A DNA stretch of 52,532 bases. Origin: Prosthecodimorpha staleyi. GTDB lineage: Bacteria > Pseudomonadota > Alphaproteobacteria > Rhizobiales > Ancalomicrobiaceae. Location: assembly GCF_018729455.1 (NCBI RefSeq), contig NZ_JAHHZF010000017.1, forward strand, positions 1-52,532, written 5' to 3'. The translations under genes were made by a program, and so were the position numbers. The notes beneath the pieces were generated by a model that made no database searches, was not told the origin of the DNA, and saw nothing but the letters and a program-made list of their open reading frames with translations. Numbering within the stretch: the stretch's first letter is position 1; each line of letters opens with the position of its first letter. This document shows positions 8,853 to 48,291 of the stretch, piece after piece.

Positions 8853-8911
8853 GGGGTGGCAGGGGGTGGGCAGTGGGCATTGGAGAATTGCGCCCCGGCA
8901 GTGCCCCCAAA

Positions 8912-28460: not shown

Positions 28461-28464
28461 CCGC

Positions 28465-30507
28465 ATGGCCTGCAGGATCGGGGTGGATGTCGGCGGCTCC
28501 TTCACGGACTTCGCGGTGCTGGACGATGCCGACGGCCGGCTCGCCAGCCTCAAGGTCTTCTCCCGCCCCGACCGGCCCGGCGAGGAACTGATCGCCGCCC
28601 TGGCGCGGCTGAAGGAGCGCGACGGCATCGACCCTGAGGCCGTCGAACGCTTCACCCACGGCACCACGGTCGGCATCAACACGGTGATCCAGCGCAACGG
28701 CGCGAAGCTCGCCCTCTTCGCCACGCGCGGCTTCGAGGATGTGCTCGAGATCGGCCGGCTGAAGATCCCGCAGATCCACAATCTCTATTCGGTCCGCCCC
28801 GCGCCGCTGATCCCACGCGACCGCGTCTTCGGCATCGACGAACGGACACTGGCGACCGGCGAGGTCCTGACTGCGCCGCAGGCCGCCGATGTCGCCGCTG
28901 CCGTGGCCGCCGCCCGCGCGGCGGGCGCCGTGGCCATCGTGCTCGCCTTCCTCAACGCCTACCGCAATCCGGCCAACGAGCGCGCCGTCGCGGCCCTGAT
29001 CGCCGGCCTGGCGCCCGACCTGCCGGTGATCGGCTCGGCGGAGACCTGGCCGATCATCCGCGAATACGAGCGCACCGTCACGGCGGTGATCAGCGGCTAT
29101 GTCCGTCCGCGTGTCGCCCACTATCTCGACCGCTTCGAGGCGACGCTGCGCGGCGCCGGCGTGGCCGGGCCGATCCTGATCACCAAGTCCAACGGCGGGG
29201 TGATGGGGCTCGACCAGGCGCGGGCCGAATGCGTCCAGATGGTCCTGTCCGGCACCGCCTCGGGGGTGATCGGTGCCGGCTGGCTCGCCCGCGAAAGCGG
29301 CTTCGGCCAGGTGCTGAGCCTCGATATCGGCGGCACCAGCGCCGACGTGGCGGTGATCCTCGACGGCGAGGCGCAATATGGCGTCGGCGAACGGGTCGGC
29401 GACTTCCAGATCCACATCCCGTCGGTCTCGGTCTCCTCGGTCGGCCAGGGCGGCGGGTCGATCGCCCGGGTCGACGATTTCGGCGTGCTCCAGGTCGGGC
29501 CGGAGAGTGCCGGCTCGACGCCGGGACCGGCCTGCTACGGCCGCGGCGGGACGCGCGCGACCATCTCGGACGCGATGGCGGCCGCCAACCTGATCGGCCA
29601 CCGCGCGCTCGGCTTCGGTGCCGTCTCGGTCGACCGGGAGGCCGCCCGCCAGGCGATCGCCCCGCTCGCCGCCGCCCTCGATCTCTCCATCGAGGCCGTG
29701 GCCGGGCGGATCGTCGAGGTCTCGGTCTCGGGCATGTTCGCGGAGGTCAGCGGCCTCGTCTCGCGCTTCGCCATCGACCCGCGCGAATTTCATCTGTTCG
29801 CCTTCGGCGGCGCCGGCCCGATGCTGGCCTGCTTCCTGGCGCGCGAACTGGACATGAAGGGCGTCGTGGTGCCGCCCTCGCCCGGCGTGGTCTCCGCGCT
29901 CGGCGGGTTGATCGCCGACCTGAAGAACGACTTCATCCGGACGGTCTACCGAGAGGCCGACGCGGACGCGGTCGCCGCGCTGGACCGCGACGTCCGCGCA
30001 CTGACCGCGGAGGCCCGCGACTGGCTCGCCCGGCAGGGCTCTGGCGGGCCGGGCGAGATCGGGATTTCGGCCGACATGCGCTATTCCGGCCAGTCCTACG
30101 AGATTGAGACGCGCCTCGATCCGGCCTGGCTCGCCGCCGGCGACGACGGCGCGGTGCGCGACGCCTTCCACGCCGAGCATGCCCGCGTCTACGGCCATGC
30201 CGACCCGTCCGCGACCGTCCAGATCGTCAACCTGCGCCTGGTCATCGTCGGCCGCACGACGAAGCCGCGCCTCGCGCGCCTCGCCGCGGCCGACGGCCCT
30301 GCCCTGCCGCGGGCCACCGTCACGGCCTTCTTCGACGGCCGGGCAACCCCGACAGCACTCTACGACCGTGCGGCGCTGCGCGCCGGCCACGGTTTTGCGG
30401 GGCCGGCGGTGATCGACCAGGACGACACCACCACGGTGGTACCGCCCGGCTTCGATGTCGCGGTCGACGGCCTCGGCAACCTCCTCATCACCCGGTCGGA
30501 GGGCTGA
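28465..30507 (+). CDS. hyuA: Hydantoinase/oxoprolinase subunit A (HyuA)
   Basis: A 680-residue protein of the N-methylhydantoinase A / acetophenone carboxylase beta family. It begins RIGVDVGGSFTDFAVLDDAD, the ATP-phosphate loop, and shows RFTHGTTVGINTVIQRNGAK, IGSAETWPIIREYERT, ISGYVRPRV, SLDIGGTSADVAVI and FGGAGPMLACFLARELDMKG. These proteins hydrolyse ATP to open a five-membered lactam or cyclic amide, or to carboxylate a ketone, with HyuB. Start at 28465 with GGAGG upstream. Confidence 0.93.
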   Translation: MACRIGVDVGGSFTDFAVLDDADGRLASLKVFSRPDRPGEELIAALARLKERDGIDPEAVERFTHGTTVGINTVIQRNGAKLALFATRGFEDVLEIGRLKIPQIHNLYSVRPAPLIPRDRVFGIDERTLATGEVLTAPQAADVAAAVAAARAAGAVAIVLAFLNAYRNPANERAVAALIAGLAPDLPVIGSAETWPIIREYERTVTAVISGYVRPRVAHYLDRFEATLRGAGVAGPILITKSNGGVMGLDQARAECVQMVLSGTASGVIGAGWLARESGFGQVLSLDIGGTSADVAVILDGEAQYGVGERVGDFQIHIPSVSVSSVGQGGGSIARVDDFGVLQVGPESAGSTPGPACYGRGGTRATISDAMAAANLIGHRALGFGAVSVDREAARQAIAPLAAALDLSIEAVAGRIVEVSVSGMFAEVSGLVSRFAIDPREFHLFAFGGAGPMLACFLARELDMKGVVVPPSPGVVSALGGLIADLKNDFIRTVYREADADAVAALDRDVRALTAEARDWLARQGSGGPGEIGISADMRYSGQSYEIETRLDPAWLAAGDDGAVRDAFHAEHARVYGHADPSATVQIVNLRLVIVGRTTKPRLARLAAADGPALPRATVTAFFDGRATPTALYDRAALRAGHGFAGPAVIDQDDTTTVVPPGFDVAVDGLGNLLITRSEG

Positions 30508-30510
30508 GCC

Positions 30511-32478
30511 ATGGCGTTCGATCGCCGCAACCTGAAGATCCTGGCCAATTTCTGCGAAGCCGCCGCCGACGCCATGGCGTTCACGCTGATGCGCACGGCG
30601 CATTCGGCCTTCGTCAAGGAGACCGAGGACTTCTCCTGCCAGATCGTCACCCGCGACGGGCTCGCCTTCGCCAATCCGCGCCATTTCGGTGCGCCCTGGT
30701 ACAGCGGCATCGACTACCAGCCTCTGATCGCCATGTTCGACCACTACGAAGAGGGCGACATCGGGCTGACCAACGATCCCTATAGCGGCTTCGTCGCCAC
30801 CCACACGCCGGATCTGCATGTCTGGAAGCCGGTCTTCCACGAGGGCGAAATCGCCTGCTTCGTGGTCGGCCATATCCACAACACCGATGTCGGCGGCGCC
30901 GTGCCGGCTTCGCTGTCGCGCGCGCTGACCGAGATCGAGCAGGAGGGGCTGCGCATCCCACCGGTCAAGCTGGTCTCGGCGGGCCGGCTCGATCCCTTCG
31001 TGGCCGAGATGATCCGCACCAATGTGCGCATGCCGGAGCAGAATCTCGGCGACCTGCAGGCGCAGATCGCCTCGCTGGCGATCGGCGAGCGCAAGATCGG
31101 CGAGATTATCCGCCGCTTCGGCTTTGCCGATTTCCTCGAAGGCGTCGAGGCGATCCTCGACTATGCCGAGGCTCAGGCGCGGCGCATCCTGTCGACCATC
31201 CCGGACGGCGACTATTTCTTCGCCGATTATGCCGACGAGGACGCCCCCGGCGGCCGCCCGAGCCGGATCGCGCTGACGCTCCGGATCCGCGGCGACGAGA
31301 TCGAGCTCGACTATACCGGCAGCGACCCGCAGCTCGCCTCCTCGCTCAACATGCCGACGGGCGGGCGCGAGCGCCATCCGCTGGTCATGGTCGGGCTGAC
31401 CTATGTGCTGTTCACCCTCGACAACAGCCTCCTGCTCAATGCCGGCACGCTGCGCCCGGCGCGCGCCGTGCTGCCGGAGGGCTCGGTCGTCAACTGCACC
31501 AGGCCGGCGGCGGTCGGCATGCGCTCGCTGACCTGCGCGATGACCCAGATCGTCACCGTCGGCGCCTTCGCCAAGGCGCTGCCGGACCTGATCCCGGCCG
31601 CCTCGCCGGGCGGCAACGCGATCATGAACATCAAGACGGCCGGTCGGAACGGGCGGCCCGTGATGGCCTCGATCGGCCCGGTCGGCGGCGGTGGCGGCGG
31701 CACGCCCTTCGGCGACGGCGGCGACGGGGCCGGCGGCGCGACCGGCTTCCTGCGCAACACCCCGATCGAGATCTCCGAGGCCGAGGTGCCGATCCGCTTC
31801 CTGCGCTACGGGCTGGAGCCGGATACCGGCGCGCCCGGCCGCCATCGCGGCGGGCTGTCGGCGGTGATGGAATTCGAGATCGCCGCGCCCGACACGGTCG
31901 TGACGGCGCGCAACCGCAACCGCTCCATCCTGGCCGGCTGGGGCGTGGCCGGTGGCGAAGCCGGCCGCGTCTCGCATTTCGTGCGCAATCCCGGCCGGCC
32001 GGATGCGGTCGAACTCGGCAACACCGATGTCGTGCGCTGCGGGCCCGGCGACGTGGTCCGCGTGGTCGGCCCGGGTGCCGGCGGCTGGGGCGATCCGTTC
32101 GAGCGGCCGGCCGAAAGGGTGCTGGCCGATGTCCGACGCGGCGCCGTCTCGGCCGAGAGCGCGGCCCACGACTACGGTGTCGTGCTGCGCGACGGCGCCG
32201 TCGACGAAGCCGCCACGGTGGCGCTTCGCGCCGGACGCCCCACCCGGCCGGCCCGGGATTTCGCGTTCGGCGCCGAGCGCGACGCCTTCGAGGCGGTCTG
32301 GACCGAGGAACGCTTCGCGCTCCTGACCGATTTCCTCGCCGCCGCCCCGGTCGACTGGCGCTATTTCCTGAAGCAGCGCGTGTTCGACCGGGTCGACGCC
32401 CGCACGGCCGGCGCGGCATCGGTCGCCGAGGAGATGGCGGCGATCTTCGCGGGCCTGCGCGCGCAATTCCGCTGGTGA
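30511..32478 (+). CDS. hyuB: Hydantoinase/oxoprolinase subunit B (HyuB)
   Basis: A 655-residue partner of HyuA, starting 3 bp after its stop. Family signatures are TLMRTAHSAFVKETEDFSC, the substrate/metal block GLTNDPYSGFVATHTPDLHV, HIHNTDVGGAVPASLSRALT and the C-terminal FLRYGLEPDTGAPGRHRGGL with a Gly-rich segment GPVGGGGGGTPFGDGGDGAGG shortened at about 31679-31738. The complex would perform ATP-dependent ring opening or carboxylation. The gene ends 34 bp from the convergent SWIM gene. Confidence 0.92.
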   Translation: MAFDRRNLKILANFCEAAADAMAFTLMRTAHSAFVKETEDFSCQIVTRDGLAFANPRHFGAPWYSGIDYQPLIAMFDHYEEGDIGLTNDPYSGFVATHTPDLHVWKPVFHEGEIACFVVGHIHNTDVGGAVPASLSRALTEIEQEGLRIPPVKLVSAGRLDPFVAEMIRTNVRMPEQNLGDLQAQIASLAIGERKIGEIIRRFGFADFLEGVEAILDYAEAQARRILSTIPDGDYFFADYADEDAPGGRPSRIALTLRIRGDEIELDYTGSDPQLASSLNMPTGGRERHPLVMVGLTYVLFTLDNSLLLNAGTLRPARAVLPEGSVVNCTRPAAVGMRSLTCAMTQIVTVGAFAKALPDLIPAASPGGNAIMNIKTAGRNGRPVMASIGPVGGGGGGTPFGDGGDGAGGATGFLRNTPIEISEAEVPIRFLRYGLEPDTGAPGRHRGGLSAVMEFEIAAPDTVVTARNRNRSILAGWGVAGGEAGRVSHFVRNPGRPDAVELGNTDVVRCGPGDVVRVVGPGAGGWGDPFERPAERVLADVRRGAVSAESAAHDYGVVLRDGAVDEAATVALRAGRPTRPARDFAFGAERDAFEAVWTEERFALLTDFLAAAPVDWRYFLKQRVFDRVDARTAGAASVAEEMAAIFAGLRAQFRW

Positions 32479-32512: not shown

Positions 32513-34408
32513 TCAAGCCCGGACGCGACGCAGCAGCGGCAGTTTGAGCCGTGCATGACGGGTCGCGGCCAGCGCAAAGACGACCCGCAGCCATCGCGCC
32601 GGCAGACCGGCGTCCGACGCCGCCACGACACGGTCGAGGAGACCGGCGACAGGTTCCAGCGCCGCGGCCCGGACGGCGGTGGCGAGATCCCCCGCGGTCG
32701 CGCGATGGACGGCAGGACCGGCCGCCTCGCCCTGCTCCGCCAGGGTGAGAATGCGATCGAGCGCGTCGTCGATCAGCCGTTCGGTCGCGGTCCCGCTCCG
32801 GTCTTCCGCGAATTGTGGCGGGGCGATCCTCACGGTCGGCTCCGAGGCTGCGGAGGCCGCGGCGGGCCGGGCACAGTCCAACGCCAGGGTCGTCCGCTCG
32901 ATCAGCGCAAAAGGCGTCAGCGCGATCCGCCCGTCCCGGATGCCTGCCGCGACGACGACGGCCCAGGGCGCGCCATGCTCGGTCAGGCGGCCGAGCGCCT
33001 CGATCCGCGCGCGAGCCGCCGGCTCGGCGTCGATTTCGAGACCCAGCCAGCGTCCACCGCCATCGACGATCGGCCAGCGCACGGCGTGGCGGACCGCATC
33101 GCGTTCGAGCGGTGCCGATGCCGAGGGCATCAGGATAGCGGTTGCGATGGCCTCTTCCCAAGATGCGGCCGTCGCATCCAGGCGTTCGCGCAGGTGGGCC
33201 TGGAGCCGCGACCAGTCGTCGAAGGCGACGGGCCAGGCGCTGACCGCCTCGATCGCCGCCGCCCAGGGCTCGGCGGCCGTCACCCGGCCGTGGCGCGCGG
33301 TCGCGATATCGCCGCGTGAGGTCGCGACCGCATCCTGGAGACGGAAACGGCGCCCGGACAGATCTGCGAGGACATGCCCCCAGACGGCCGCGTCGAAATA
33401 GCCCCGGGCCGGCTCGAAGCCGGGATCCTGGCCATGGGCCCGCACCAGGGTCGCGTGCCGGATGATCCCGGCCGCCGTGTCGTAGAAGGCGGCGGTCACG
33501 CCCCGAGCGCCGGATGGCGCCACCCAGAGATGCCCGCCGAGCCCGATCAGTTCCATGTCGGGCGGCAGGGGGGGCGCGGCCGCTTCTGCCGGCCGGCGCT
33601 CGGCGTTTCCGACGCCGTCCGCAAACGCGTCGTCGCGGCCTGCCGCCGCGGCCGCGAGGCCGAGATCGACCAGCAGCGTCCGGACATCGGAAGCCGGATC
33701 GCGCCGGCGCGCCCGATCCAGCCCATCGGCGATGGTGCCCAGGCCTGCCGCCACATCCGGGCGGCCGGCCGCCCGCGCCGCCGCGGCAAAATCGGCCAGT
33801 TCACGGTCGAACCGATCCGAGGCGACGGAAAGACCCGTGGCGAAGATCCGGCCGAGCAATGCCTCGACCCGGCGCGGCCAGTCCGGGACCGCCGCTGCCG
33901 CTGCGCGGCGGGACGGTTGCCGGGCCGCGGAGCCGGCGGAACCGCGATCACCAACAGCTGCCGGCCGGTCCGATGCGGCGCCGTCGTCGGACGGTACGGC
34001 GGGCCGCTCGCCCCGGCCAGGACCCGCCGCTTTCGGGGTGCGAGGCGGCACCTCCGGGGCCGCATCCGCCGGGACCGCATCCGCCGGCACCGTCGGGACT
34101 GCGGCCGGCGGAACCTTGTCCGAAAGTCCGGCCCCTTGCCCCTGCAGGGCAAAGACCGCAGCGATCCGATGCCTGCAAAGGATCGGCGACGGGCAGGAGC
34201 AGCGGCTCTTGGCGAGGCCGCCGACGCCGAGCCGCGCCGTCTCGCCGTCGATCGCGAACGTAAATTCCCCGGTCTCCGACAGCGCCGCAACGCCACGTCC
34301 GGATGCGGCATCCGCCTTGGCCCGGCGGACCAGGCCGTGTGACGAGGCCGACGCCAGATCCGCCTCGGTCACATCGCGATAGGCCGCGGCGAGCCGGGTC
34401 CCGGTCAT
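32513..34408 (-). CDS. SWIM zinc-finger protein (YehQ-like), last gene of the MoxR-VWA operon
   Basis: A 631-residue protein. The SWIM motif C-x-C-x5-C-x-H is at residues 70-80 (CSCPSPILCRH) after a short beta hairpin (GEFTFAIDGETARLGVGG). A long Ala/Pro-rich linker (about 95-175) joins it to an alpha-helical C-terminal part with no recognised domain. SWIM domains bind DNA or proteins. The start shares 4 bp with the stop of the VWA gene. The pairing SWIM + VWA + MoxR ATPase + DUF5682 + DUF4132 matches yehQ-P-L-M-I of E. coli. Function is unknown. Confidence 0.82.
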   Translation of the reverse strand: MTGTRLAAAYRDVTEADLASASSHGLVRRAKADAASGRGVAALSETGEFTFAIDGETARLGVGGLAKSRCSCPSPILCRHRIAAVFALQGQGAGLSDKVPPAAVPTVPADAVPADAAPEVPPRTPKAAGPGRGERPAVPSDDGAASDRPAAVGDRGSAGSAARQPSRRAAAAAVPDWPRRVEALLGRIFATGLSVASDRFDRELADFAAAARAAGRPDVAAGLGTIADGLDRARRRDPASDVRTLLVDLGLAAAAAGRDDAFADGVGNAERRPAEAAAPPLPPDMELIGLGGHLWVAPSGARGVTAAFYDTAAGIIRHATLVRAHGQDPGFEPARGYFDAAVWGHVLADLSGRRFRLQDAVATSRGDIATARHGRVTAAEPWAAAIEAVSAWPVAFDDWSRLQAHLRERLDATAASWEEAIATAILMPSASAPLERDAVRHAVRWPIVDGGGRWLGLEIDAEPAARARIEALGRLTEHGAPWAVVVAAGIRDGRIALTPFALIERTTLALDCARPAAASAASEPTVRIAPPQFAEDRSGTATERLIDDALDRILTLAEQGEAAGPAVHRATAGDLATAVRAAALEPVAGLLDRVVAASDAGLPARWLRVVFALAATRHARLKLPLLRRVRA

Positions 34409-35529
34409 GCGATGATGTCCGCCAGCCATTCGGCGAAGCGGTCCGGCGTCAGTGCGGCGACCTGCATGCCGGCGTCCGCAAGCCGCGCCGCGATCGCCCG
34501 GTCGTAGACGGGCGTGGCGGCCTCGTCCAGCGCTGCCAAGCCGAGGGTGACCACCCGTGCCTCGTTGAGGCGCCGAACGGCGGCGACCAGCCGGGCGACC
34601 GAGGCGCCTTCGCAGAAGTCGCTGACCAGGGCCAGGACGGTCCGGCTCGGCTGGGTGATCAGGCTTTCGCAATAGGCCAGCGCCGCCCCGATATTGGTGC
34701 CGCCCCCCAGTTGGACGGCGAAAAGGAGATCGATCGGGTCGTCGAGGCGGTCGGACAGGTCGACCACCGCCGTGTCGAACACCACGAAGCGAACCTCCAC
34801 GCCCGGCAGCCGTGCCATGATCGACGCCATGACGGTGGCATGAACCAGCGACATCAGCATCGATCCGCTCTGGTCGACGCAGAGGATCACGGTGAAGGGC
34901 AGGCGGCGGCTTTGCCGGCCGTTGAAGCGCAGGCGCTGCGGAACCAGCCGGCGCGTCTGGGGATCGTAGTGCGCCAGATTGCTCCGGACCGTCCCGGCCA
35001 GATCGAAGTCCGCCGCGCTGCGCAGCCCGACCGCCCGATGCCGGCGGCGGCGGCCGGACAGGGACCTTTCCATGCGAGGCTTCAACCGGCGCACGATCTC
35101 GTCGACCACCTCGGCCACGATCTTGCGCGCCATGTCGGCCAAACGAGGATCGATCCGCCCCTTGAAGGTGAGCAGCACCTTCATCAGATCGCGGTTCGGT
35201 TCCAACCGTGCGAGGAGTTCGGGATCGGCCAACAGGTCGGACATCCCGAACCGGTCGATGGCATGGCCCTGGACCGCCTCGAACACGCTGCGCGGAAACA
35301 GCCGGCGCATGTCTGCGAGCCATTCCGGCAGGGCGATCTGCGAAGGATCGAGCGTGCCGCTTTGGCTGCGCCGACCGAGACCGCGGCCATAGACCACCTC
35401 CAGTGCCCCGTCGATGCGCGCGTCCCGCTCCGACAGACCGCCGCCGAGATCGCCCGCATGGCGGCCGAGCGCCATGCGCCAGCGGTTGAGGCGGTGCAGC
35501 CGGTCGCCTTCGGACTCGGTTTCGCTCAT
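34405..35529 (-). CDS. VWA-domain protein (YehP-like), partner of the MoxR ATPase
   Basis: A 374-residue protein. The C-terminal von Willebrand A domain has a full MIDAS: D219-Q-S221-G-S223 in ILCVDQSGSM, T278 in GGGTNIG and D304 in LVSDFCEG. The N-terminal 200 residues are helical, with LDPSQIALPEWLADMRRLFP and a basic RMERSLSGRRRRHRAVG stretch. VWA proteins with MoxR ATPases form AAA+/metal-dependent scaffold pairs. Start and stop overlap both neighbours by 4 bp. MIDAS completeness implies Mg-dependent partner binding. Confidence 0.88.
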   Translation of the reverse strand: MSETESEGDRLHRLNRWRMALGRHAGDLGGGLSERDARIDGALEVVYGRGLGRRSQSGTLDPSQIALPEWLADMRRLFPRSVFEAVQGHAIDRFGMSDLLADPELLARLEPNRDLMKVLLTFKGRIDPRLADMARKIVAEVVDEIVRRLKPRMERSLSGRRRRHRAVGLRSAADFDLAGTVRSNLAHYDPQTRRLVPQRLRFNGRQSRRLPFTVILCVDQSGSMLMSLVHATVMASIMARLPGVEVRFVVFDTAVVDLSDRLDDPIDLLFAVQLGGGTNIGAALAYCESLITQPSRTVLALVSDFCEGASVARLVAAVRRLNEARVVTLGLAALDEAATPVYDRAIAARLADAGMQVAALTPDRFAEWLADIIA

Positions 35530-37868
35530 GCCTCGCCCGCCAGCCATGCGGCCAGCCCCTGGGCCCGCCAGCGTTCGGCAAGCCGGAGGCCGATCGCGGT
35601 ATTCTCGGCAAGTTCCGAGGCGGTCAGTCCGGCCGCCATGTCGGGCGCGCCGCTGGTACCGTGCAGCCCCGGAATGAGCGCAGCGATCCGCTCGATCTCG
35701 ATCGGATTGAGGGACGAGAAGGCCAGCCGCAGTTCCGGCAGCACGGCCAGGAAGGTGACATCGTCGAGGCGCGCCAGAAAGCCGTCGACCATCCCGATCA
35801 GCGCCGGGCTGCCGACCAGGAAGCGTGGCACGGCCGCGAGGATCCCGCTCAGGACCGCGGCCCGCTCCGAGGCCTGTTCGTAGACGCCGGCAAATGCGTT
35901 CTGCACGCGCCGTTCGAAGGCTTCTTCGCCGAGGCATCCGAGAACGCGTGCAACGGCCGCCACCGCACCGAGCAGAAAAGGCGGCAGGTCGCCGTCGATC
36001 AGGTCCAGGACAGCCTCGGTCAGCAGCGTCCGATCGAATGCCGCGAGGTTTTCCGGATCGGTCAGATCGGCGGCCAGATCGGCAAGGCCGCGAGCCGCCG
36101 CGATCGCCTGCTGCCCGTCGAGATCCGACAGGGTGGCGAGCGAGGCGGCGAGACGGCGATAGCACAGGCCGACCAGGGCGGCGGCCGTCTGTTCGGGCTC
36201 TCCCTGCGCCGGCGCCGACAGGATCCGGAAGGCCGCCAGCAGGTCCGGCAGCGCACTCACTTCGACGAGGATCGCTTCGATCCGCGACGCGATCGCCGCC
36301 AGTTCGCCGCCGAGACCCGCGCGCCGTGCGGCGGCATAGAGCGCCGCGGCGGGGGCCGCCTCGCGACCGCGGCCGTCCTTGGCCAGCCCTTCGAGGCGAC
36401 GCAGGATCTCGGTCCTGCAGACGGTTTCCAGCCGATCGCCGTCAAGCAGGCGGTCGAACAGGGCCGCCTCGACAGCCGGCCCCCAGGCATAGCTCCAGGT
36501 CTCGTGCAGTTGGGTCGACCGACGCCGTTGCCCCGGATCGGGACCGGAGATGCGGCGCGCGAAGCCCGCTCCGATCAGGTCGAGCGCATGCAGGAAACGG
36601 CTCGCGGCGCGGTGACGGGGCTTGCGCTGGAGATCGAGGACCCGGGAGGCCGGCGCGGCGCGATCGAGCGCAAAGCCGAGGGCCCGGGCTGTGGCGCGGA
36701 CGTCCTCGACCAGAGGCACGACGAAACGGCCGGGCGGCACCTCGCCGATCCGGTCGCCGGTCAGATAGCCCTCGAAGGCCGCAAGCACCGGCGCGGTCCC
36801 GGCCTCGACCGCGTCCTTGACGGCGGTTGCCCGCACGGCATCGATCAGTTCGCTGCGGCCCGGACCCGGCAGTCCGCGCAGGACGGCAAGCCGCGATGCG
36901 GTCTCGGCGGCGGCCCGCAGGGTCGGCAGCCGGAACGCCGCGTCCTGCCCGTCGCGCCGCAGACGGTCGGCGAAGCCGACGAGGATGTCGAGCGCCAGTC
37001 CGTCCCATGTCGCCGTCGCATCGCTGGCGAATGCATGCGCGAGGCGCTCATAGAAGCCGGGCGACGGCAGACCGGCCGCGTAGCCGTCGGCACGGTCGAG
37101 CCGCGCATAGTCGTAGCGCACCAGCGCAAGTCGGCCGGCCGGCGACGGCTGCGATACCGGCCGGGTCTCGGCCTGCAGAGCCGGCACGTGCAGTCCGCCG
37201 ACCACGACCGCGAGCAGCCCACCGGCCGCGGCGGCCTCCGCGAGGACGTGTCGCATATGCGCCTCGCGGGCGAGCCTGCCGTCGTCGGCATGCGACTGCG
37301 GCGACAGGGTTTCGCGCAGATGCCGGCAATAGGTTTCGACCGTTTGGAAGAAGCCGCGCCAGTCCCGATGCCCGATCCGGCTTTCGAACAGACGATCCCA
37401 GACCTCGTTGCCGTCGCGGGCGCCGGTCCGTTCGCAGAGTGCACGAACATAGGCGCCGGCTGTGAACGCCTCCTCCTGTGTCAGCAGGACCGGATGCCCC
37501 TCGGCTGCAGCACCAGGATCGAGCATGGCGGGATGGCGCGATGGCAGGTCGATGGCCGTCACCGGCACGCCGTTGCGGAACGCCCAGCGCAGGGCGACCA
37601 GTTCGGGCGAATGATCGCACAGCGGATAGTACGAGATCGCCTCGGAGTCGGTCCCGGACGATGTTCGGTCGGGCATCGAGACGATGGCCACCGGCGCCAC
37701 GATGCGCGGGTCGGCGAGCGCCCCGATCAGGTCCACAAAATCCGCCGGTGCCTCGATCAGCAGTCTCGCGGGACGGATCTCGTCGAGCGCCACGGCCAGC
37801 ATCGCCGCACAGGCGGGACTGTGATGCCGGATCGGAAAGACGACGATCTCGGCGGCGCCCTCGGCCAT
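35526..37868 (-). CDS. DUF5682-family protein (YehM-like)
   Basis: A 780-residue protein. It opens with EIVVFPIRHHSPACAAMLAV, the typical IRHHSP start of DUF5682, then RLLIEAPADFVDLI, ISYYPLCDHSPELVALRWAF and AEAAAAGGLLAVVVGGLHVP. The long C-terminal part is helical. The fold and reaction are unknown; the N-terminal part resembles proteins with a TraB/ChaN-like layout. It sits 8 bp after the MoxR ATPase and overlaps the VWA gene by 4 bp. Same position as yehM in E. coli. Confidence 0.82.
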   Translation of the reverse strand: MAEGAAEIVVFPIRHHSPACAAMLAVALDEIRPARLLIEAPADFVDLIGALADPRIVAPVAIVSMPDRTSSGTDSEAISYYPLCDHSPELVALRWAFRNGVPVTAIDLPSRHPAMLDPGAAAEGHPVLLTQEEAFTAGAYVRALCERTGARDGNEVWDRLFESRIGHRDWRGFFQTVETYCRHLRETLSPQSHADDGRLAREAHMRHVLAEAAAAGGLLAVVVGGLHVPALQAETRPVSQPSPAGRLALVRYDYARLDRADGYAAGLPSPGFYERLAHAFASDATATWDGLALDILVGFADRLRRDGQDAAFRLPTLRAAAETASRLAVLRGLPGPGRSELIDAVRATAVKDAVEAGTAPVLAAFEGYLTGDRIGEVPPGRFVVPLVEDVRATARALGFALDRAAPASRVLDLQRKPRHRAASRFLHALDLIGAGFARRISGPDPGQRRRSTQLHETWSYAWGPAVEAALFDRLLDGDRLETVCRTEILRRLEGLAKDGRGREAAPAAALYAAARRAGLGGELAAIASRIEAILVEVSALPDLLAAFRILSAPAQGEPEQTAAALVGLCYRRLAASLATLSDLDGQQAIAAARGLADLAADLTDPENLAAFDRTLLTEAVLDLIDGDLPPFLLGAVAAVARVLGCLGEEAFERRVQNAFAGVYEQASERAAVLSGILAAVPRFLVGSPALIGMVDGFLARLDDVTFLAVLPELRLAFSSLNPIEIERIAALIPGLHGTSGAPDMAAGLTASELAENTAIGLRLAERWRAQGLAAWLAGEA

Positions 37869-37876
37869 GCCCGGCC

Positions 37877-38992
37877 TCAACCGTCCTTCAGGGCCTTGGC
37901 GGCGGCGGCATGAAACTCGGCCCAGGCCTTCTGACGCTGGCCACGCGGACGGACGATCTGGTCGAGATAGGCTCTGACCTTGCGCACATCGTCCGGGTTG
38001 TCCTTCAGCACCACGCCGTGCAGCTGGCGCCCGACATGGCCGCCGTCGACCCGCCCCTGCCCGAACCAGGCGGCATCGAGGCTGGCCGCATGGGCGACGT
38101 TGACCGCCTCGGCCGTGGACATGACCGCATCCGGACGGGCGATCGGCGCACCGTCCTGGGTTCGGCCGATGCGCAGGTCCTGAAAGGCCTGGACCAGCAC
38201 GTCGAGCACCTCGTCGGGCCAGAGAACCCGGGGCGCCAGGCCGGCCAGCCGATCGCCCAGCTGGCGCTGGATCAGCGCCCTCTCCAGGGCCGGGTCGGCC
38301 AGCGGCTTCACGGTCTCGAAGTTGAAGCGGCGCTTCAGGGCGCTCGACATCTCGTGGACGCCCCGATCGCGCAGGTTGGCGGTGGCGATGATGTTGAAGC
38401 CCGGCCGGGCGAAGCGGTGCGCGCCGAGTTCCGGCATGGCCATCACCTTCTCGGACAGGATCGAGATCAGCGCATCCTGGATCTCCTGCGGGCAACGGGT
38501 GATCTCCTCGATCCGCACGAGCCGCCCTTCGGTCATGGCGCGCAGCACCGGAGACGGGGCCAGCGCCCGTTCGCTCGGCCCCTCGGCGATCAGCAGCGCA
38601 TAGTTCCAGCCGTAGCGGATATGGTCGTCGGTGGTCCCGGACGATCCCTGCACTGTCAGGGTCGAGGTTCCCGATATCGCCGCGGCCAGAAGCTCCGACA
38701 GCATGGATTTTGCGGTGCCCGGCTCGCCGACCAGCAGAAGCCCCTGTTCGCTCAGCAGGCTGACGATGGCGCGCTCGACCAGGCCGTCGTCGCCGAAGAA
38801 CTTGCGCGACACGCCGAGACCGGGCTCGCCGAGAATGAAGCTCCGGACCGCTCGCGGGGAAAGCCGCCAGCCGTCCGGCCGTCCCCCGGTATCAGCCGCA
38901 GCCAGGCGGGCGAGTTCGTCGGCATGGCGCTGCTCGGCCGCGGGGCGCAGCATTTCGGCGGGCGGCATCAGAGCTGCACCGTGGTCTGCCAT
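37877..38992 (-). CDS. MoxR-type AAA+ ATPase (YehL-like)
   Basis: A 371-residue AAA+ protein. Walker A is GEPGTAKS at 89-96; the Walker B region is RLVRIEEITRCP at about 157-168, with Glu where the usual Asp stands; sensor 1 is in NIIATANLRDRG; the arginine region is SSALKRRFNFETV. This EEITR variant is, to my knowledge, shared by the YehL branch of MoxR. It should remodel or unfold a partner bound through the VWA protein. Its start lies inside the end of the DUF4132 gene (25-bp overlap). Confidence 0.9.
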   Translation of the reverse strand: MADHGAALMPPAEMLRPAAEQRHADELARLAAADTGGRPDGWRLSPRAVRSFILGEPGLGVSRKFFGDDGLVERAIVSLLSEQGLLLVGEPGTAKSMLSELLAAAISGTSTLTVQGSSGTTDDHIRYGWNYALLIAEGPSERALAPSPVLRAMTEGRLVRIEEITRCPQEIQDALISILSEKVMAMPELGAHRFARPGFNIIATANLRDRGVHEMSSALKRRFNFETVKPLADPALERALIQRQLGDRLAGLAPRVLWPDEVLDVLVQAFQDLRIGRTQDGAPIARPDAVMSTAEAVNVAHAASLDAAWFGQGRVDGGHVGRQLHGVVLKDNPDDVRKVRAYLDQIVRPRGQRQKAWAEFHAAAAKALKDG

Positions 38993-41900
38993 GCCGGATC
39001 GAAGCCGCGGCCGGCCGCCGCGATCGCATGATAGTCGTTCCAGGCCTCGGACATGAGCGCCGCCGGCACCGCGGACAGCAGCATCGGATGACCGTAGCGC
39101 GGACTGCCGCCGTCGGTCTTCGGCACGAAGGACAGCGACATCAACGCCGTCGTTCGGTTCTCCTCGGGCAGGGCATTGCCGGAGAACGTGATCACCACGA
39201 CCAGCTTCAGCGATTCGAAATGTTTCTCATAGGTCGTGAACCAGCCGCCGTCGCCGGTCGGCCCGCGCTGATAGCCGCGCTTGGTGGCGACGCCGCGCAG
39301 CGTGAAGGCGTCGACCAGATGGCCCTCCCGATCCCCGATCGTCTTGGCCTGCGCCGCGGCCGGGTCGGTGCGCAGGATCGGCCGGCCGAACTGTACGAAG
39401 AGCGGCTCGATCGCATAGTCGGCGAGATGGCGCTGCCAGGCTTCCGCATCCCCGGGCGACATATGCAGCGGATGGGCGAGACCGACGGTGGCGAAATCCG
39501 CCGGATCGACCGGCGTGTCGGCTGCGTCGGTCAAGGTGAGATCGTCGAGCGGCCGGAACGCGGCGACGACCGCGCCGGAGGCGTCGTAACCGAGCCAAAC
39601 CAACCGCTGGACCAGCCGGCCGATGACCGGGTGGCGCAGCAGGAAGCCGGTCCACTCCGCAATCGGCCAGCGGCGTTCGCAGCAGAAGGCCTCGTAGAGG
39701 CGCTGGGACTGCAGGTCGACGACCTGCCGGATCTCCTTGCGCGCCTGGGACAGCTGCTTCTTGGCGGCCGCAAGGCCCGCCTCGTCGTCGGCCGTCGCCG
39801 GCAGCCCCTGGACCGGCTTGCCGTCGGGGTTGAACAGGGCCAGCTTCAGTCCGGCATCCAGGCGTGCGCCATAGACACGGTCGCCGATCGGCAGTTCGAG
39901 GAGACCGGTCTCGTCGAGACCTCCGGTCGGCGCGGTCCGATCGCCGAGTTCGTCGCGCGTCCAGCCGCGTTCCGCGGAAATCTCGTCGATCAGTTCGGCC
40001 GCGCGCTGCTGCACGCCCTTGGTCCGGTAGCGGTTGGCGATGGCGAGCAGAAACTGCAGGGCGACCGGGTCCGGGTTGCCGGCGACGCATTCCATCAGCG
40101 CCCGGCATTGGGCGGTGCGGATATAGAACTCCTTCAGGTAGGCTTTCACGATCTGGACCAGGGTGACGCCCGGAATCCGGGCGGCGAGGCCCAGCATGCC
40201 CTTCTGGTCGATCGCCGAGCCGTAGAACTGGAACAGTTTCTCCTGCTTCAGGATCGCATAGAGCCGTTCCCGGCTCATTTCCGGCTGCCAGGAGCGATAG
40301 ACCGGCAATTGGGTGTCGACCAGGGCCTCGGCATGGGCGGCGGCCTCGGCCTCGGTCGGCCGGCGCGTGTCCTCGGCGATGAAGGATTGCAGCAGGAACA
40401 CCCCGAGCGCCGCCGCGCTCTGCGGCTGCATCTCGTCGAGCAGCAGGTCGAAGAGAGCGTTACCGCGCGGCTGCTTCAGCTTCACCGCGACCAGCGTCCA
40501 CCAGCGCGGCACGTCCGGATCGATCGGCCGGCCGTCGCGCCAGAGCAGCGGCGGCATGACCTCGAAGCGGAGCCAGTCCGGCCCGGGCTTGGCCTGGGCC
40601 AGGCCCGCCCTGGCTTCGCGCGCCAGCGCCTCGGCCGACATGAATCGCCCGATATCGCCGCCGAGCCGGCGCAGAGCGGTCAGCAGGGCGGCGCGCGCCA
40701 CCTCCGACTTCTCCTTGCCGAGCGCCGCCTCGATGACCGCGACCGCCTCCCGATCCCCGCGCGCGGCCAGCCAGGCGGCCGCGCGCGCCCGGATTTCGGC
40801 CTTGGGCGACTGAACCAGGGGACGGAGCAACGGATCCGCACCGGCGAAATCGGCGAGCAGGCTCTGTGCCAGGCTTCGCGACGGAGCCCGATCGCCGATC
40901 CCCAACTCGATCAGACGGGAAAGATAGCGCTCGGGGATTGCCGGCAGCCAGGACAGAAGCACCAGGGCGCGATCCAGGGACAGCGCCGTCTTCTGCCCGG
41001 GGGCGGCAAGGCCGAGCGCCTGATCGATGACCGCAAGATTCTCCGCCAAATAGGGCCAGAAGCGGTCGATCTGGACGTCGGCGAGATCATTGAAATTGTA
41101 GCCGTCTGCGATCAGTGCGCGCAGCGGATAGTCCGGTTCGAAGGGCAGCAGCGGCATCAGGGTCCGCACATCGGCGCCCGCCGGCGCCTTTGCCATCAAC
41201 CGGCTGTCGGCAGAGAACAGCCAGGAGACAGCCTGATATCCCTGCATGCCTCTTGCGACCCACCAGCGTGCGAGATGCTGCAAGGTGAAGTCGGGCAGTT
41301 CGAAGATGCTTCTGATCGTGACGGCGGGCTTGGGAACGACGTGGCCGGACGCCAGTAGAACGGGCAGTCCGACATCCCCTTCGACGGGCTCGCCGTCCAT
41401 CACGCGCAGCACGTCGTCGGCCAGTCCGGGACGGCATAGCTCCCATGCCGCGGGAGAACTGTCGCGACGGGTTTCCAACTCGCGGTTCCACTCTTCGAGA
41501 TGGGCCTTGAGCGCAGCTCGTCCGGCCGCGCCGACAGGACGCTCCGGCTCGGGCGGCACGATCGGAGGGATGATCACCGTCACGCCACCGAGGCCGCGAT
41601 AGGACCCGCCCCCCTCGGCCCGAACGGTCGTCTCCTCGGCGGCCTGCCCGCCGCCGGCGGCATCGAGAACCGACAGCGCCGATGTGATGGCCGCCCGCAC
41701 CGGCTTGGCCTTCTCACCCTCGAGATGGCGGGACAGCAGGCCGGCGGCCTCCGCCTTCAGATAGGCCGCGGCGGTTTCGACCGCGGTCATCCGCTCTTTC
41801 TGCCCACCTTCGGACAACGCTCTGCCGATGCGTTCGCGCAGACGCTCGGGATCGGCCCCGGACAGAGCCGCCCGCGCCGCGGCGCGCACGCCCTTCGCCG

Positions 41901-42675
41901 TATCCTGCTGCGCCGCATAGACGAGATCGAACAGCGCCGGCTCGTTCAGGAGCCCATGGTGGCCGAGATAGCCGATCAGACTGGCGCGCGACGGTGCCGT
42001 CAGCGCCGCGATATGGGCCGGCATTGTCTCGGCGCGGCTGCGGATGAAATCGGGCAAGCCCGCCATCGTGAAAGAGTTGGCGTCGTCGCCCGGCGTGAAG
42101 GGATCGACCCCGTTGAAGACGATGTTCAGGATCGTGGCCTCGTCGATGCCGGCGGCGCGGCACAGATCCCGCAACCGCCCGCTCGACAGGCTCTCCGACC
42201 AGGGCGAGCGACGTTGCGCGCGGTCCAGCGTCGAGGACGCGCTCAGAGCGCTGCTCACGTAGGCGCGCAGCCAATCCGGCGTCGCAGGTCCGCCATGGTA
42301 CCGGCGCCACCATTCATTGTGATTGAAACCCGCATCCAGGACGCGGGCCAGCCGAAAGACGATCTCCGGCCGCCAGCTTTTCGGCGCGTTCAGGAAATCG
42401 ACGATCGGCACGGCCAGCAGCACCGCTCCGCTGTCAAATGGGTGCATTTGAAACCTAAGGGTGAATTTCTCCCATATGAGGCCCACCACCGCCTCGTCCT
42501 CGCCGAAGAGGACATAGCGCCGGGTCCGCTTCGGCAGCGAGGAGTCCGTGCCGGGGATCGCTCCGGCGAGCGGTTCGAAGGCGCGGAAGAAGGCTTCGAG
42601 GCTCGTCAGATCGGCCGGGTCGAGACCGGTCTCCGGCTCCGCGCGGCCCAGCAGGCGATCGATCAGACTCGGCAT
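38968..42675 (-). CDS. DUF4132-family giant protein (YehI/MolR-like) with HEAT-like repeats
   Basis: A 1235-residue protein, first gene of the operon. HEAT-like helical repeats are at about 228-340 (RASLIGYLGHHGLLNEPALF and following) and again around 620-690 (RARAAAWLAARGDREAVAVI). The DUF4132 domain lies in the last 250 residues, with KRGYQRGPTGDGGWFTTYEK as its hallmark. E. coli YehI and the MolR group share this architecture; some HEAT/DUF4132 proteins are thought to bind client proteins. No catalytic motif was found. Cytoplasmic, since no signal peptide is present. Confidence 0.85.
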   Translation of the reverse strand: MPSLIDRLLGRAEPETGLDPADLTSLEAFFRAFEPLAGAIPGTDSSLPKRTRRYVLFGEDEAVVGLIWEKFTLRFQMHPFDSGAVLLAVPIVDFLNAPKSWRPEIVFRLARVLDAGFNHNEWWRRYHGGPATPDWLRAYVSSALSASSTLDRAQRRSPWSESLSSGRLRDLCRAAGIDEATILNIVFNGVDPFTPGDDANSFTMAGLPDFIRSRAETMPAHIAALTAPSRASLIGYLGHHGLLNEPALFDLVYAAQQDTAKGVRAAARAALSGADPERLRERIGRALSEGGQKERMTAVETAAAYLKAEAAGLLSRHLEGEKAKPVRAAITSALSVLDAAGGGQAAEETTVRAEGGGSYRGLGGVTVIIPPIVPPEPERPVGAAGRAALKAHLEEWNRELETRRDSSPAAWELCRPGLADDVLRVMDGEPVEGDVGLPVLLASGHVVPKPAVTIRSIFELPDFTLQHLARWWVARGMQGYQAVSWLFSADSRLMAKAPAGADVRTLMPLLPFEPDYPLRALIADGYNFNDLADVQIDRFWPYLAENLAVIDQALGLAAPGQKTALSLDRALVLLSWLPAIPERYLSRLIELGIGDRAPSRSLAQSLLADFAGADPLLRPLVQSPKAEIRARAAAWLAARGDREAVAVIEAALGKEKSEVARAALLTALRRLGGDIGRFMSAEALAREARAGLAQAKPGPDWLRFEVMPPLLWRDGRPIDPDVPRWWTLVAVKLKQPRGNALFDLLLDEMQPQSAAALGVFLLQSFIAEDTRRPTEAEAAAHAEALVDTQLPVYRSWQPEMSRERLYAILKQEKLFQFYGSAIDQKGMLGLAARIPGVTLVQIVKAYLKEFYIRTAQCRALMECVAGNPDPVALQFLLAIANRYRTKGVQQRAAELIDEISAERGWTRDELGDRTAPTGGLDETGLLELPIGDRVYGARLDAGLKLALFNPDGKPVQGLPATADDEAGLAAAKKQLSQARKEIRQVVDLQSQRLYEAFCCERRWPIAEWTGFLLRHPVIGRLVQRLVWLGYDASGAVVAAFRPLDDLTLTDAADTPVDPADFATVGLAHPLHMSPGDAEAWQRHLADYAIEPLFVQFGRPILRTDPAAAQAKTIGDREGHLVDAFTLRGVATKRGYQRGPTGDGGWFTTYEKHFESLKLVVVITFSGNALPEENRTTALMSLSFVPKTDGGSPRYGHPMLLSAVPAALMSEAWNDYHAIAAAGRGFDPAWQTTVQL

Positions 42676-43001
42676 GACATCCCCAAAGCGAAGGCCCGCA
42701 ATTCAACACTTAAACGGCGCAACCGTGCAAGTTGCATGACGGCCGTTCAGCCATGATCTGGGCAAGGACATCGGCGCCGGCCGGATCGCGGGGACGCGCG
42801 GGGCCGACGGTGGCGCCGGCCCTCGGAGAGCGGCCGAGAGGCGGCGTTGCGCCACTCCGGACGCGAACAGATCGGTCCTCCCGTCATCGGCCTCGCCGGC
42901 GGGGCTGCCCGGCAGCCGGGAAAATCGCAGCACGCTCAGGAGATGCCGGCAATGGCCGCGCCGGACGGCGGCCCAGGCTTCGCGGGTCGAACGATGCCGC
43001 T
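42676..43001. promoter_or_regulatory. Intergenic promoter region of the DUF4132-MoxR-VWA operon
   Basis: No gene is seen here. It lies between the LacI gene's 3' end and the start of the operon. A short palindrome TGCAA-G-TTGCA at 42726-42736, about 50 bp before the DUF4132 start, is a possible operator. The left end is AT-richer (CAATTCAACACTTAAACG), fitting a promoter. Confidence 0.35.
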
Positions 43002-44045
43002 TCACCCGGCCATTTCAACTGCCGGCACAAGGCTCGGCGCCGCCGTCGATCCGCGCTCGATCAGGGTCGGGCGGAGCATGAATTTGCACCGCGTCTCCCG
43101 GTCCTGCCCCTCGCGCGTGGCCATCCGGAACAGGAAGTCCGTCGACGCCGTCGCCAGGTCCTCGACCGGCAACGCGATGGTGGTGATGCCGTCACCGCAC
43201 CAGCGCAGGGTCGGCGAATCGCCGAAGCCGACAAAAGACAGGTCCCGGGGAACCGACACGCCGTGCCGGCGCACGCTGTCATAGGCGCCGATGCTGATGC
43301 GGGCGCCGGCGGTCACCACCGCGCTCGGCGGGCGGTCGGCGGCGAGCAGCCGGTCCATGGCGGCGCGGCCGAACTCGCTGTCGCAGCTGCCGGCATGGAT
43401 CAGCGCCTCGTCGACCGCAATGCCGGCCTCCTGCAGGGTTCGGCGGAACCCGGCGAGCCGCAACTCCCCGGTCGAGATCGCCACCGTGGAGCCGATATAG
43501 GCGATCCGGCGGTGGCCCTGCGCGATCAGATGGCCGGCGGCAAGCCGCATCGCCTCGACATCCTCGATCCCGAACCAGTCGGAAGAGACCGCCGGGCAGT
43601 GCCGGACGAACTGGATATGGTCCATCGAGCGCATCAGCTTCAGCGTCTCCGGACGCGGGGCGATGCTCGGGATCATGATCACCCCGATCGCCCGGGCGGA
43701 GCGCAGGTTGCGCAGGTGATGCAGTTCGAGCGCCGCATCGTCGTCCGTGACGGCGAGCACGAGTTGCACGCCCCGTTCCCGGCAGCAGCGGGCGATGGCC
43801 TTGGCGGCGGTCGAATAGAGGTCGTTCTGAATGTCGGGCACCAGGAGCCCGACCATCGCGCTGGTGCCCGTCCGCATGGCCTGGGCGGCGCGGTCGACGA
43901 CATAGCCCTGCCGCTCGGCCGCCGCGGCGACCCGCTCGCGGGTCTCTCGGCTGATCCGCGGCGAATCCGCCAGCGCCCGGGCGACCGTCGACACCGAAAG
44001 GCCGAGCGCTTCGGCGAGATCCTTCATCTTGACCGGTTGCTTCAT
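43002..44045 (-). CDS. LacI-family transcriptional regulator
   Basis: A 347-residue repressor. The HTH is MKDLAEALGLSVSTVARALA with the hinge helix RETRERVAAAAERQGYVVDR, then a periplasmic-binding-type ligand domain (VGLLVPDIQNDLYSTAAKAI, RRIAYIGSTVAISTGELRLA, SFVGFGDSPTLRWCGDGITT). It is divergent from the TRAP transporter genes, with two matching palindromic operators in the gap. A sugar or sugar-acid ligand is expected; the ligand is not readable. The stop is followed by the DUF4132 promoter region. Confidence 0.93.
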   Translation of the reverse strand: MKQPVKMKDLAEALGLSVSTVARALADSPRISRETRERVAAAAERQGYVVDRAAQAMRTGTSAMVGLLVPDIQNDLYSTAAKAIARCCRERGVQLVLAVTDDDAALELHHLRNLRSARAIGVIMIPSIAPRPETLKLMRSMDHIQFVRHCPAVSSDWFGIEDVEAMRLAAGHLIAQGHRRIAYIGSTVAISTGELRLAGFRRTLQEAGIAVDEALIHAGSCDSEFGRAAMDRLLAADRPPSAVVTAGARISIGAYDSVRRHGVSVPRDLSFVGFGDSPTLRWCGDGITTIALPVEDLATASTDFLFRMATREGQDRETRCKFMLRPTLIERGSTAAPSLVPAVEMAG

Positions 44046-44055
44046 CGGCAGCCTC

Positions 44056-44071
44056 GCGCAATCGATTGCGC
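44056..44071. promoter_or_regulatory. LacI-type operator 1 (perfect palindrome)
   Basis: The sequence GCGCAATCGATTGCGC is a perfect 16-bp palindrome with the CG centre favoured by LacI-family repressors. It lies 10 bp upstream of the repressor's own start, consistent with autoregulation. Confidence 0.75.
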
Positions 44072-44121
44072 ATCCTTTGGTTCATTGACGACAAACTAGC
44101 AGGCAGGTCAGGCTGTTTACA

Positions 44122-44137
44122 GCGCAATCGTTTGCAC
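44122..44137. promoter_or_regulatory. LacI-type operator 2 (near-palindrome)
   Basis: GCGCAATCGTTTGCAC matches operator 1 except at two positions and keeps the GCAATCG-TTTGC core. It lies 66 bp from operator 1 and about 88 bp before the TRAP binding-protein start, so it likely controls the transporter operon. Two sites about six helical turns apart allow looping (inference). Confidence 0.7.
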
Positions 44138-44224
44138 GTACCGTCCCCTTCAGACGCTGCGACGTCGACCCGGAGTGCCGGGGGTGCGTTCGCCCTGTCC
44201 AAAAAGACCGATCGGGAGGATTTC

Positions 44225-45253
44225 ATGGATTCGAGCTTCGGAACACCGATTTCGCGCCGGCGCCTCGGCGGCCTCGGGCTCGCGGCCCTGGCGATGCCGG
44301 GCGTGATCACTGCCGCGCGGGCGCAGCAGAAGTTCACATGCCGCATCGCCCATACCGAAGGCATCGGCACGCCGATCACGCTCGCCTTCGAGAAGTGGAC
44401 CGGCATCCTCAAGGACAAGAGCGGTGGCCGGATCGACGCCCAGCATTTTCCCGCCGCCCAGCTCGGCGGCCTCGCCCAGGCGCTTGAAGGCAGCCGCATC
44501 GGCACCATCCAGGTCACGACCGCCGGCCCCGACAGCGAGGAGGCGATCGCGCCGGAAATCGCGGCCTTCGGCGGCGCGCCCGGCTTCATCTACAAGGACG
44601 AGGCCCATGTCGACCGCGTGCTGCAGGGACCGCTCGGCAAGGAGGTCTCGGATATCGCCCGCAAGAAGACCGGCGTCGAATTCGTCGCCTATGCGGAGAC
44701 CGGCTTCCGCCACATCCTGTCCAAGCGTCCGGTCACCGCGCTCGACAGTCTGAAGGGCCTCAAGATCCGGGTACCCGAGCTGCGCATCTGGGTCGACTTC
44801 TGGAAAGCTCTCGGCGCCAATCCGACGCCGCTGCCCTATTCGGAGCAGTATTCGGCGCTTTCGACCGGCGTGATCGACGGGCTCGATTCGGACTTCTTCT
44901 CCGTGCTCGGCTTCAAGTGGTACGAGCAGGCTAAGAACGTCACCGTGACGGCGCATTGGTTCCTGCCCAAGGCGGTGCGGGTCAACGCCCGCTGGCTCGA
45001 CGGGCTGCCGGCCGACCTGCAGGACCTGGTCCGGAGTTCCGCCCGGGAGGTGTTCGCCGAGCAGCGCGCGACCAACCGCGCCAATGCCGACAAAGCGCTC
45101 GCCGATCTCGAGAAGCTCGGCTGCTCGGTCAACCGGATCTCGCCGGAGGAACGCGCGCAGTGGGCCAAGCTGACCGCGCCGCTGTTCGATCAGTTCGGCG
45201 CCAAGAGCCCGGAGACCAAGGCGATGATCGAGAAGATCCGGCAGCTTGCCTGA
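44225..45253 (+). CDS. dctP: TRAP transporter solute-binding protein (DctP)
   Basis: A 342-residue periplasmic receptor. A Tat signal (SRRRLGGLGLAALAMPG, cleavage expected after ARA-Q near 33) leads into the DctP domain: FTCRIAHTEGIGTPITLAFE, GLKIRVPELRIWVDFWKALG (substrate Arg in KIRVPE) and PYSEQYSALSTGVIDGLDSD. Start at 44225 with GGGAGGA upstream. It brings its ligand, usually a C4-acid, sugar acid or other carboxylate, to the fused DctQM membrane protein that follows. Controlled by the LacI repressor. Confidence 0.93.
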   Translation: MDSSFGTPISRRRLGGLGLAALAMPGVITAARAQQKFTCRIAHTEGIGTPITLAFEKWTGILKDKSGGRIDAQHFPAAQLGGLAQALEGSRIGTIQVTTAGPDSEEAIAPEIAAFGGAPGFIYKDEAHVDRVLQGPLGKEVSDIARKKTGVEFVAYAETGFRHILSKRPVTALDSLKGLKIRVPELRIWVDFWKALGANPTPLPYSEQYSALSTGVIDGLDSDFFSVLGFKWYEQAKNVTVTAHWFLPKAVRVNARWLDGLPADLQDLVRSSAREVFAEQRATNRANADKALADLEKLGCSVNRISPEERAQWAKLTAPLFDQFGAKSPETKAMIEKIRQLA

Positions 45254-45371
45254 TCGCTTTCCACGCGCCGTCGGCCGGAGCGCACATCCGGCCGACGGCG
45301 CCCGTCTGCCCCCCATCTGCCGCCCCGCCCCGTCTGCGCCACCCGTCTGCCGCCCCCGGACTCCGCGAGCC

Positions 45372-47237: not shown

Positions 47238-47253
47238 TCGGAACGCACCTGCC

Positions 47254-48285: not shown

Positions 48286-48291
48286 GCCGCC

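Follow-up and report, generated by a model that had tools for sequence, protein, structure and literature searches.

MoxR-type AAA+ ATPases encoded beside a von Willebrand factor A (VWA) protein are represented by NorQ-NorD, CoxD-CoxE, and RavA-ViaA and are best known for metal insertion and complex maturation; NorQ has been proposed to twist its VWA partner NorD (PMC13036017; papers given by PMC number are cited from part of their text). YehL is a named MoxR subfamily (PMC3893208), and yehL-yehQ is present in nearly every complete Escherichia coli genome, yet the open-licence literature yielded no paper on the function of yehL-yehQ and none for the DUF5682 family, an absence that is not proof. 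We describe a related five-gene cassette in a stretch of 52,532 nucleotides from Prosthecodimorpha staleyi (contig NZ_JAHHZF010000017.1). This whole stretch is called the window; positions refer to it, and residue numbers to its proteins, unless stated otherwise. The cassette probably encodes a conserved bacterial machine in which an ATP-powered ring and its partner control a hydrolase-like protein, the DUF5682 protein. Relative to a preliminary description of this DNA, the likeness of DUF5682 to a TIKI-superfamily enzyme and a version of the system built on DUF5691 are new.

The preliminary description had placed five genes on the minus strand between 32513 and 42675, and gene calls and Pfam agree with it on genes, families, coordinates, and junctions (Table 1). 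From the DUF4132 gene to the SWIM gene, the junctions are a 25-bp overlap, an 8-bp gap, and two 4-bp overlaps. Pfam, for which the DUF5682, VWA, and SWIM proteins were entered as longer open frames, assigned DUF4132 (E 3.7e-40, plus HEAT_2), AAA_5 (1e-36), DUF5682 (1.1e-103), VWA_CoxE (1.1e-47), and SWIM (4.4e-5; 23.3 bits against a cut-off of 19.6); an NCBIfam scan of the window proteins gave no match above a cut-off. The MoxR-VWA core proposed earlier is also recognizable in detail. In the MoxR protein, residues read off conserved columns supply the Walker A, Walker B, sensor, and arginine motifs expected of an active AAA+ ATPase. The neighbouring VWA protein has the complete metal-ion-dependent adhesion site (MIDAS) previously noted; across 88 sequences, D219, S221, S223, T278, and D304 are each conserved at 98% or more. 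Sequence searches of the PDB matched the MoxR protein to midasin and gave no usable relative for the DUF5682, DUF4132, SWIM, or VWA protein; sulfotransferase matches to the DUF4132 C-terminus (E 0.018) were judged to be chance.

Table 1. Cassette genes, the predicted domain of DUF5682, and the repeats flanking the stretch missing from a congener.
Feature	Position	Strand	Details
DUF4132/HEAT giant, YehI counterpart, proposed platform	38968..42675	-	1235 residues; DUF4132 residues 952-1135, HEAT_2 615-669
MoxR-type AAA+ ATPase, YehL counterpart	37877..38992	-	371 residues; Walker A GEPGTAKS, residues 89-96
DUF5682 protein, YehM counterpart	35526..37868	-	780 residues; N-terminal TIKI/ChaN/TraB-like domain and helical tail
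Predicted TIKI/ChaN/TraB-superfamily domain of DUF5682, residues 1-265	37074..37868	-	Invariant R14, H15, H16, E39, D107, R201, E202, H227; weak structure matches
VWA_CoxE protein, complete MIDAS, YehP counterpart	34405..35529	-	374 residues; proposed adaptor between MoxR and DUF5682
SWIM zinc-finger protein, YehQ counterpart	32513..34408	-	631 residues; C70, C72, C78, H80
7-bp direct repeat CGGGTCG, left copy	32559..32565		At one end of the segment absent from congener G246
7-bp direct repeat CGGGTCG, right copy	42983..42989		At the other end of the segment absent from congener G246

The five families travel together, as the preliminary description required of them. A scan of genome contigs with a MoxR alignment provided the best 80 of 577 candidate loci, picked by MoxR similarity alone and possibly omitting the window's own genome; profiles built in this analysis then called DUF4132 in 76, MoxR in 80, DUF5682 in 79, VWA in 77, and SWIM in 74, with all five in 73. 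Six of the seven remaining loci lie on short contigs or near a contig end, and one (L059) is a real miss. The exact window order is kept in 41 of the 80, most others having extra or moved DUF4132 genes. The set spans seven phylum-level groups (Pseudomonadota, Actinomycetota, Verrucomicrobiota, Cyanobacteriota, Planctomycetota, Spirochaetota, and Melainabacteria). Mean identity falls from 60% for MoxR and 51% for VWA to 36% for DUF5682, 34% for DUF4132, and 28% for SWIM, and inter-locus distances correlate among the five families (Spearman 0.72-0.83, 75 loci), for which shared ancestry alone would suffice. No sixth gene recurs beside the module: the largest flank clusters comprise 9 and 7 loci, resemble by eye short-chain dehydrogenases and ATP-binding cassette transporters, and were rejected as conserved members. 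DUF5682 occurs in 10 of 200 Pseudomonadota genomes and in 2 of 15 from the window's family (the window's own counted in both), and in 10 of 149 from the phylum of Nocardioides (the centre genome, a known holder, counted). Plasmid copies exist: one from Sinorhizobium has the DUF4132 gene moved between DUF5682 and VWA, and one from Iodobacter (L188, 1336-18740) has two DUF4132 genes amid insertion sequences, next to restriction-modification genes. Loci with DUF4132 are here called type I; type II combines SWIM, DUF5691, MoxR, DUF5682, and VWA; and type III combines MoxR, a single DUF5682-VWA frame, and a weak SWIM-profile match.

Profile and motif comparisons indicate that the N-terminal domain of DUF5682 probably belongs to the TIKI/ChaN/TraB superfamily. 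In the TIKI superfamily, a pair of His, a pair of Glu, and one conserved basic residue are described as surrounding a parallel sheet (PMC6254334). Compared with 20 ChaN-family proteins, the domain profile obtained an hhalign score of 40.9 (P 8e-5, probability 61%), a similarity of superfamily level when set beside the 44.6 (probability 71%) of the positive control, the accepted members TraB and ChaN. Control scores with the domain were at most 24.1 for MoxR, VWA, SWIM, and DUF4132, at most 16.2 for a reversed profile, and at most 23.8 over 100 column shuffles; further controls gave 19.1 for the DUF5682 tail against ChaN, 22.8 for short-chain dehydrogenases, and 15.1 for alpha/beta hydrolases. 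The ChaN similarity was repeated in a separate profile comparison, and the ChaN alignment recovers the solved protein 2g5g (E 4.8e-33). With a 90-sequence profile of all types, 189 columns aligned to ChaN (score 38.4), the first His, the Glu, and the GxxH being in register.

Conservation singles out the same positions. An alignment of 65 DUF5682 proteins has 23 invariant columns within residues 1-265, and the eight residues listed in Table 1 belong to them. In a second alignment, of 26 rows with the window protein and YehM included, these eight are kept in 25; the divergent locus L182 has Cys at R14. TraB rows carry an invariant GxxH, Glu, Arg, and GxxH, the same series as positions 12/15, 39, 201, and 224/227 in DUF5682, where most of the distant rows have Gly at residue 12 and many type I rows have Pro. 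In AlphaFold2 models of 780 and 265 residues (mean pLDDT, the predicted local distance difference test, 90.1 each), His15 and His16 directly follow strand 6-13, the first; Glu39 lies within strand 35-41, the second; Asp107 is the last residue of strand 103-107; and His227 comes just past strand 218-224.

Several results weigh against this placement and against a catalytic DUF5682. The domain profile scores only 28.2 against 16 TraB-family proteins, and for type II DUF5682 sequences by themselves the scores are 26.1 (ChaN) and 26.5 (TraB), next to 23.4 for a control. Searching PDB sequences with the domain profile gave no match, and Foldseek with the domain found none better than E 0.14. The best Foldseek matches were three Tetrahymena complex IV chains (E 0.14, 0.20, and 1.0); this complex contains a TraB-family subunit (PMC10060162), but the matched chains could not be identified as that subunit, since the TraB profile found none of them by sequence. 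The Ere-family protein 3b55 ranked eighth (E 2.1) among P-loop proteins of like score, and with the whole DUF5682 model as query the matches were mainly helical-repeat proteins and never fell below E 0.03. Of the 2His/2Glu set, DUF5682 has both His and one Glu as invariant residues; the Glu that comes first in the ChaN active site, two residues ahead of the His, is lacking in DUF5682 and also in TraB rows. Because Ile or Val stands at this position (13), the enzyme may be altered or inactive. Finally, the ratio of nonsynonymous to synonymous substitution rates (dN/dS) was computed against K-12 for four E. coli strains drawn from the 20 matching genomes listed. It reaches 0.114-0.161 for yehM and 0.193-0.272 for yehI, against 0-0.066 for the neighbours btsR, btsS, and mlrA. 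By these values the motor genes yehL (0.020-0.056) and yehP (0.041-0.065) are under constraint similar to that of the neighbours, and constraint is weaker for yehM and yehI.

A parallel five-part system has DUF5691 where the window has DUF4132. It was seen among 24 further loci, 23 from samples of Pseudomonadota and the phylum of Nocardioides (picked for DUF5682) and one from a Verrucomicrobium genome (picked for DUF5691): 13 are type II, 7 type I (6 with a SWIM match), 2 type III, 1 is cut by a contig end, and 1 is divergent (L182). VWA adjoins MoxR and DUF5682 in 23 of the 24, also in loci lacking DUF4132. Pfam confirmed DUF5682 and VWA_CoxE in one frame in L177 and L179, and DUF5691 and SWIM in one frame in L178, all three being stop-to-stop readings rather than annotated genes; it found no SWIM domain in the type III loci. 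In L170, L171, and L172, the SWIM-DUF5691 pair is opposite in direction to MoxR-DUF5682-VWA. The SWIM families of types I and II are related outside the finger (P 3e-7) and the platforms weakly so (P 5e-4), with two controls at P 0.22 and 0.48. Four of the 200 Pseudomonadota genomes exceed the DUF5691 cut-off, the same four that have type II. Types I and II occur together in three genomes (G196, G254, G384) and types II and III in two (G279, G363).

An annotated type II set is carried by a Deinococcus plasmid, and in that of Deinococcus taeanensis (L187) a hypothetical gene of 78 codons (locus positions 8774-9010) lies between the ATPase and DUF5682 genes. L182 (4478-12018, from an actinobacterial sample) has VWA at the end of a long frame, MoxR, and a very distant DUF5682 whose first His motif is CHH instead of RHH; no DUF4132, DUF5691, or SWIM match was found in it. 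A frame of L179 (3589-7284) considered as a type III platform looked like a shadow frame and was set aside.

Support for a common machine comes from the linkage, the shared frames, the motifs, selection in E. coli, and the profile similarity. The reading we favour, tentatively, is an ATP-gated hydrolase machine: a TIKI-type hydrolase would be under the control of a MoxR-VWA motor, with the choice of target falling to the HEAT and SWIM proteins. Judging from the NorQ-NorD, CoxD-CoxE, and RavA-ViaA families, the MoxR protein would form the AAA+ ring and the VWA protein its adaptor. DUF5682 would be the permanent partner of this pair, held by the VWA protein, and its N-terminal domain would probably hydrolyse a peptide, ester, or amide bond through His15, His227, and Glu39. 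By twisting or pulling the VWA protein, the ring may switch on, load, or release DUF5682. Because SWIM and DUF5691 share a frame and the operons of the sister type are split, DUF4132 and SWIM may constitute a second half that selects and presents the substrate. It is possible, though we advance it with somewhat more reserve, that YehL-type systems represent a new class of AAA+-gated TIKI hydrolases, with the motor permanently coupled to DUF5682, at least two exchangeable target-choosing halves (DUF4132 with SWIM, DUF5691 with SWIM), a fused form, and a spread over eight phylum-level bacterial groups. A probable TIKI-superfamily enzyme provides named residues to mutate and a reaction class to assay, and the shared reading frames indicate which proteins to combine first.

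Alternatively, like CoxD-CoxE and NorQ-NorD, the motor could serve the maturation of a metal or cofactor site, its client being DUF4132 or an outside enzyme; DUF5682 would then carry the cofactor in the manner of ChaN and have no catalytic role. We consider this doubtful, although it fares best among the alternatives. The VWA protein belongs to the CoxE family, and the ChaN family is named Cofac_haem_bdg in Pfam. A Deinococcus DUF4132 protein has been suggested to act in molybdopterin synthesis and E. coli MolR in molybdate use (PMC8533742, PMC4245954), but the Deinococcus paper gives moeA and moeB as unchanged (PMC8533742). A copper link, yehM being among the genes mutated in copper-evolved E. 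coli (PMC12409786), comes from one mutation list, and the flanks offer no recurrent gene as client.

A role in stress or protein quality, in which, following genotoxic or solvent stress, the motor would remodel or clear protein complexes that are damaged and perhaps bound to DNA, appears unlikely. SWIM fingers are often found in DNA-related proteins, and upstream of yehI lie a second, broken gene and yehF (PF05406, which we take to be the WGR family), all of which would suit it. So would the rise of the Deinococcus radiodurans DUF4132 protein DRA0166 after mitomycin C (PMC8533742), but its membership in a five-gene module was not established in this analysis. Canonical LexA boxes, sought with four patterns pooled in 421 upstream windows covering all module genes on the MoxR strand, are not enriched: 2 matches were found against about 9 expected from their density in the loci, and SOS control of the module was rejected.

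The least likely explanation is an anti-phage or other conflict system of the MoxR-VWA kind, a role the preliminary description had entertained and which finds no support here because yehL-yehQ is present in nearly all complete E. coli genomes. MoxR-vWA ternary conflict systems do exist (PMC7159879), the cassette is patchy outside E. coli, one plasmid copy adjoins restriction-modification genes, and SWIM and DUF4132 are the least conserved parts; however, PADLOC recognized no catalogued defence protein (best match E 9e-4), bpMoxR reached 26.2 bits, under its cut-off of 27, with a model that covers the beta-propeller type only, a scan of IMG/VR gave no confirmed relative, the 50,697 records of the phage collection included one unannotated contig, and no flank gene recurs, the flanks not having been scanned for defence families.

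Neither of two congeners has DUF5682. In one of them (G246), the sequences on either side of the cassette adjoin each other directly and are collinear with the window at about 92% identity. The end of the SWIM gene is left at the empty site, namely its last 16 codons and the stop, 12 of 16 residues being equal, and a single heptamer, CGGGTTG, stands where the window has two direct repeats (Table 1), a pair that may have arisen by chance. Most simply, the cassette was present in the ancestor and G246 lost it by a 10.4-kb deletion; this is preferred over a gain in the window's lineage because of the retained SWIM codons and stop. The cassette is flanked in the window by hydantoinase/oxoprolinase A and B genes (28435-32478) and, at 43002-49308, by a LacI-type regulator, two Gfo/Idh/MocA-type genes, and tripartite ATP-independent periplasmic (TRAP) transporter genes, namely DctP and one frame with DctQ and DctM.

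Comparison with E. coli confirms the likeness to yehI-L-M-P-Q that had been pointed out before. MG1655 has yehI (DUF4132), yehK, yehL (MoxR), yehM, yehP (VWA), and yehQ (SWIM), preceded by yehF and the pseudogene yehH; yehM is labelled DUF5682 in other E. coli records. Families, order, and strand are thus those of the window, and BLASTP pairs every gene with its counterpart: identity is 48.6% over 354 residues for MoxR, 42.0% for VWA, 27.7% for DUF5682, and 29.7% over 290 residues for DUF4132, the weakest pair being SWIM and YehQ (29.6% over 81 residues, E 8e-6). yehL-yehQ was matched in 5301 of 5426 complete E. coli genomes, with at least 80% of the stretch in 5162. Unlike the window, K-12 has an upstream pseudogene and a small gene, yehK, that separates yehI from yehL, and its YehL (L002) sits on an extremely long branch of the MoxR tree (at least 3.4 changes per column), in which Proteus and Providencia proteins are ordinary members; E. 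coli may for this reason be an unusual model of the family. In three of four E. coli strains (L183-L186), though not in the remaining one, the DUF4132 gene upstream of yehI carries a flag as broken or incomplete; yehQ is annotated longer than in K-12 in three of the four and frameshifted in one.

Like the MoxR-vWA ternary conflict systems, the window combines MoxR and vWA with a fixed extra component, but their third components VMAP, iSTAND, and FtsH were not seen here, and the available part of the paper contains no occurrence of Yeh, SWIM, ChaN-like, or TraB (PMC7159879). With TIKI, ChaN, TraB, and Ere proteins, DUF5682 shares a GxxH-like start with H15 after strand 1, Glu39 on strand 2, Arg201 on a helix, and a GxxH (H227) after the last parallel strand; it differs from them in having another invariant His, His16, and some 500 residues of helical tail. 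As in NorQ-NorD, CoxD-CoxE, and RavA-ViaA, an AAA_5/MoxR ATPase is encoded close to a MIDAS-bearing VWA_CoxE partner; unlike those pairs, the window's has no recurrent client gene in its neighbourhood and three more fixed partners (DUF5682, the HEAT platform, and SWIM). The hydrolase reading, if true, would add a hydrolase branch to the MoxR-VWA machines.

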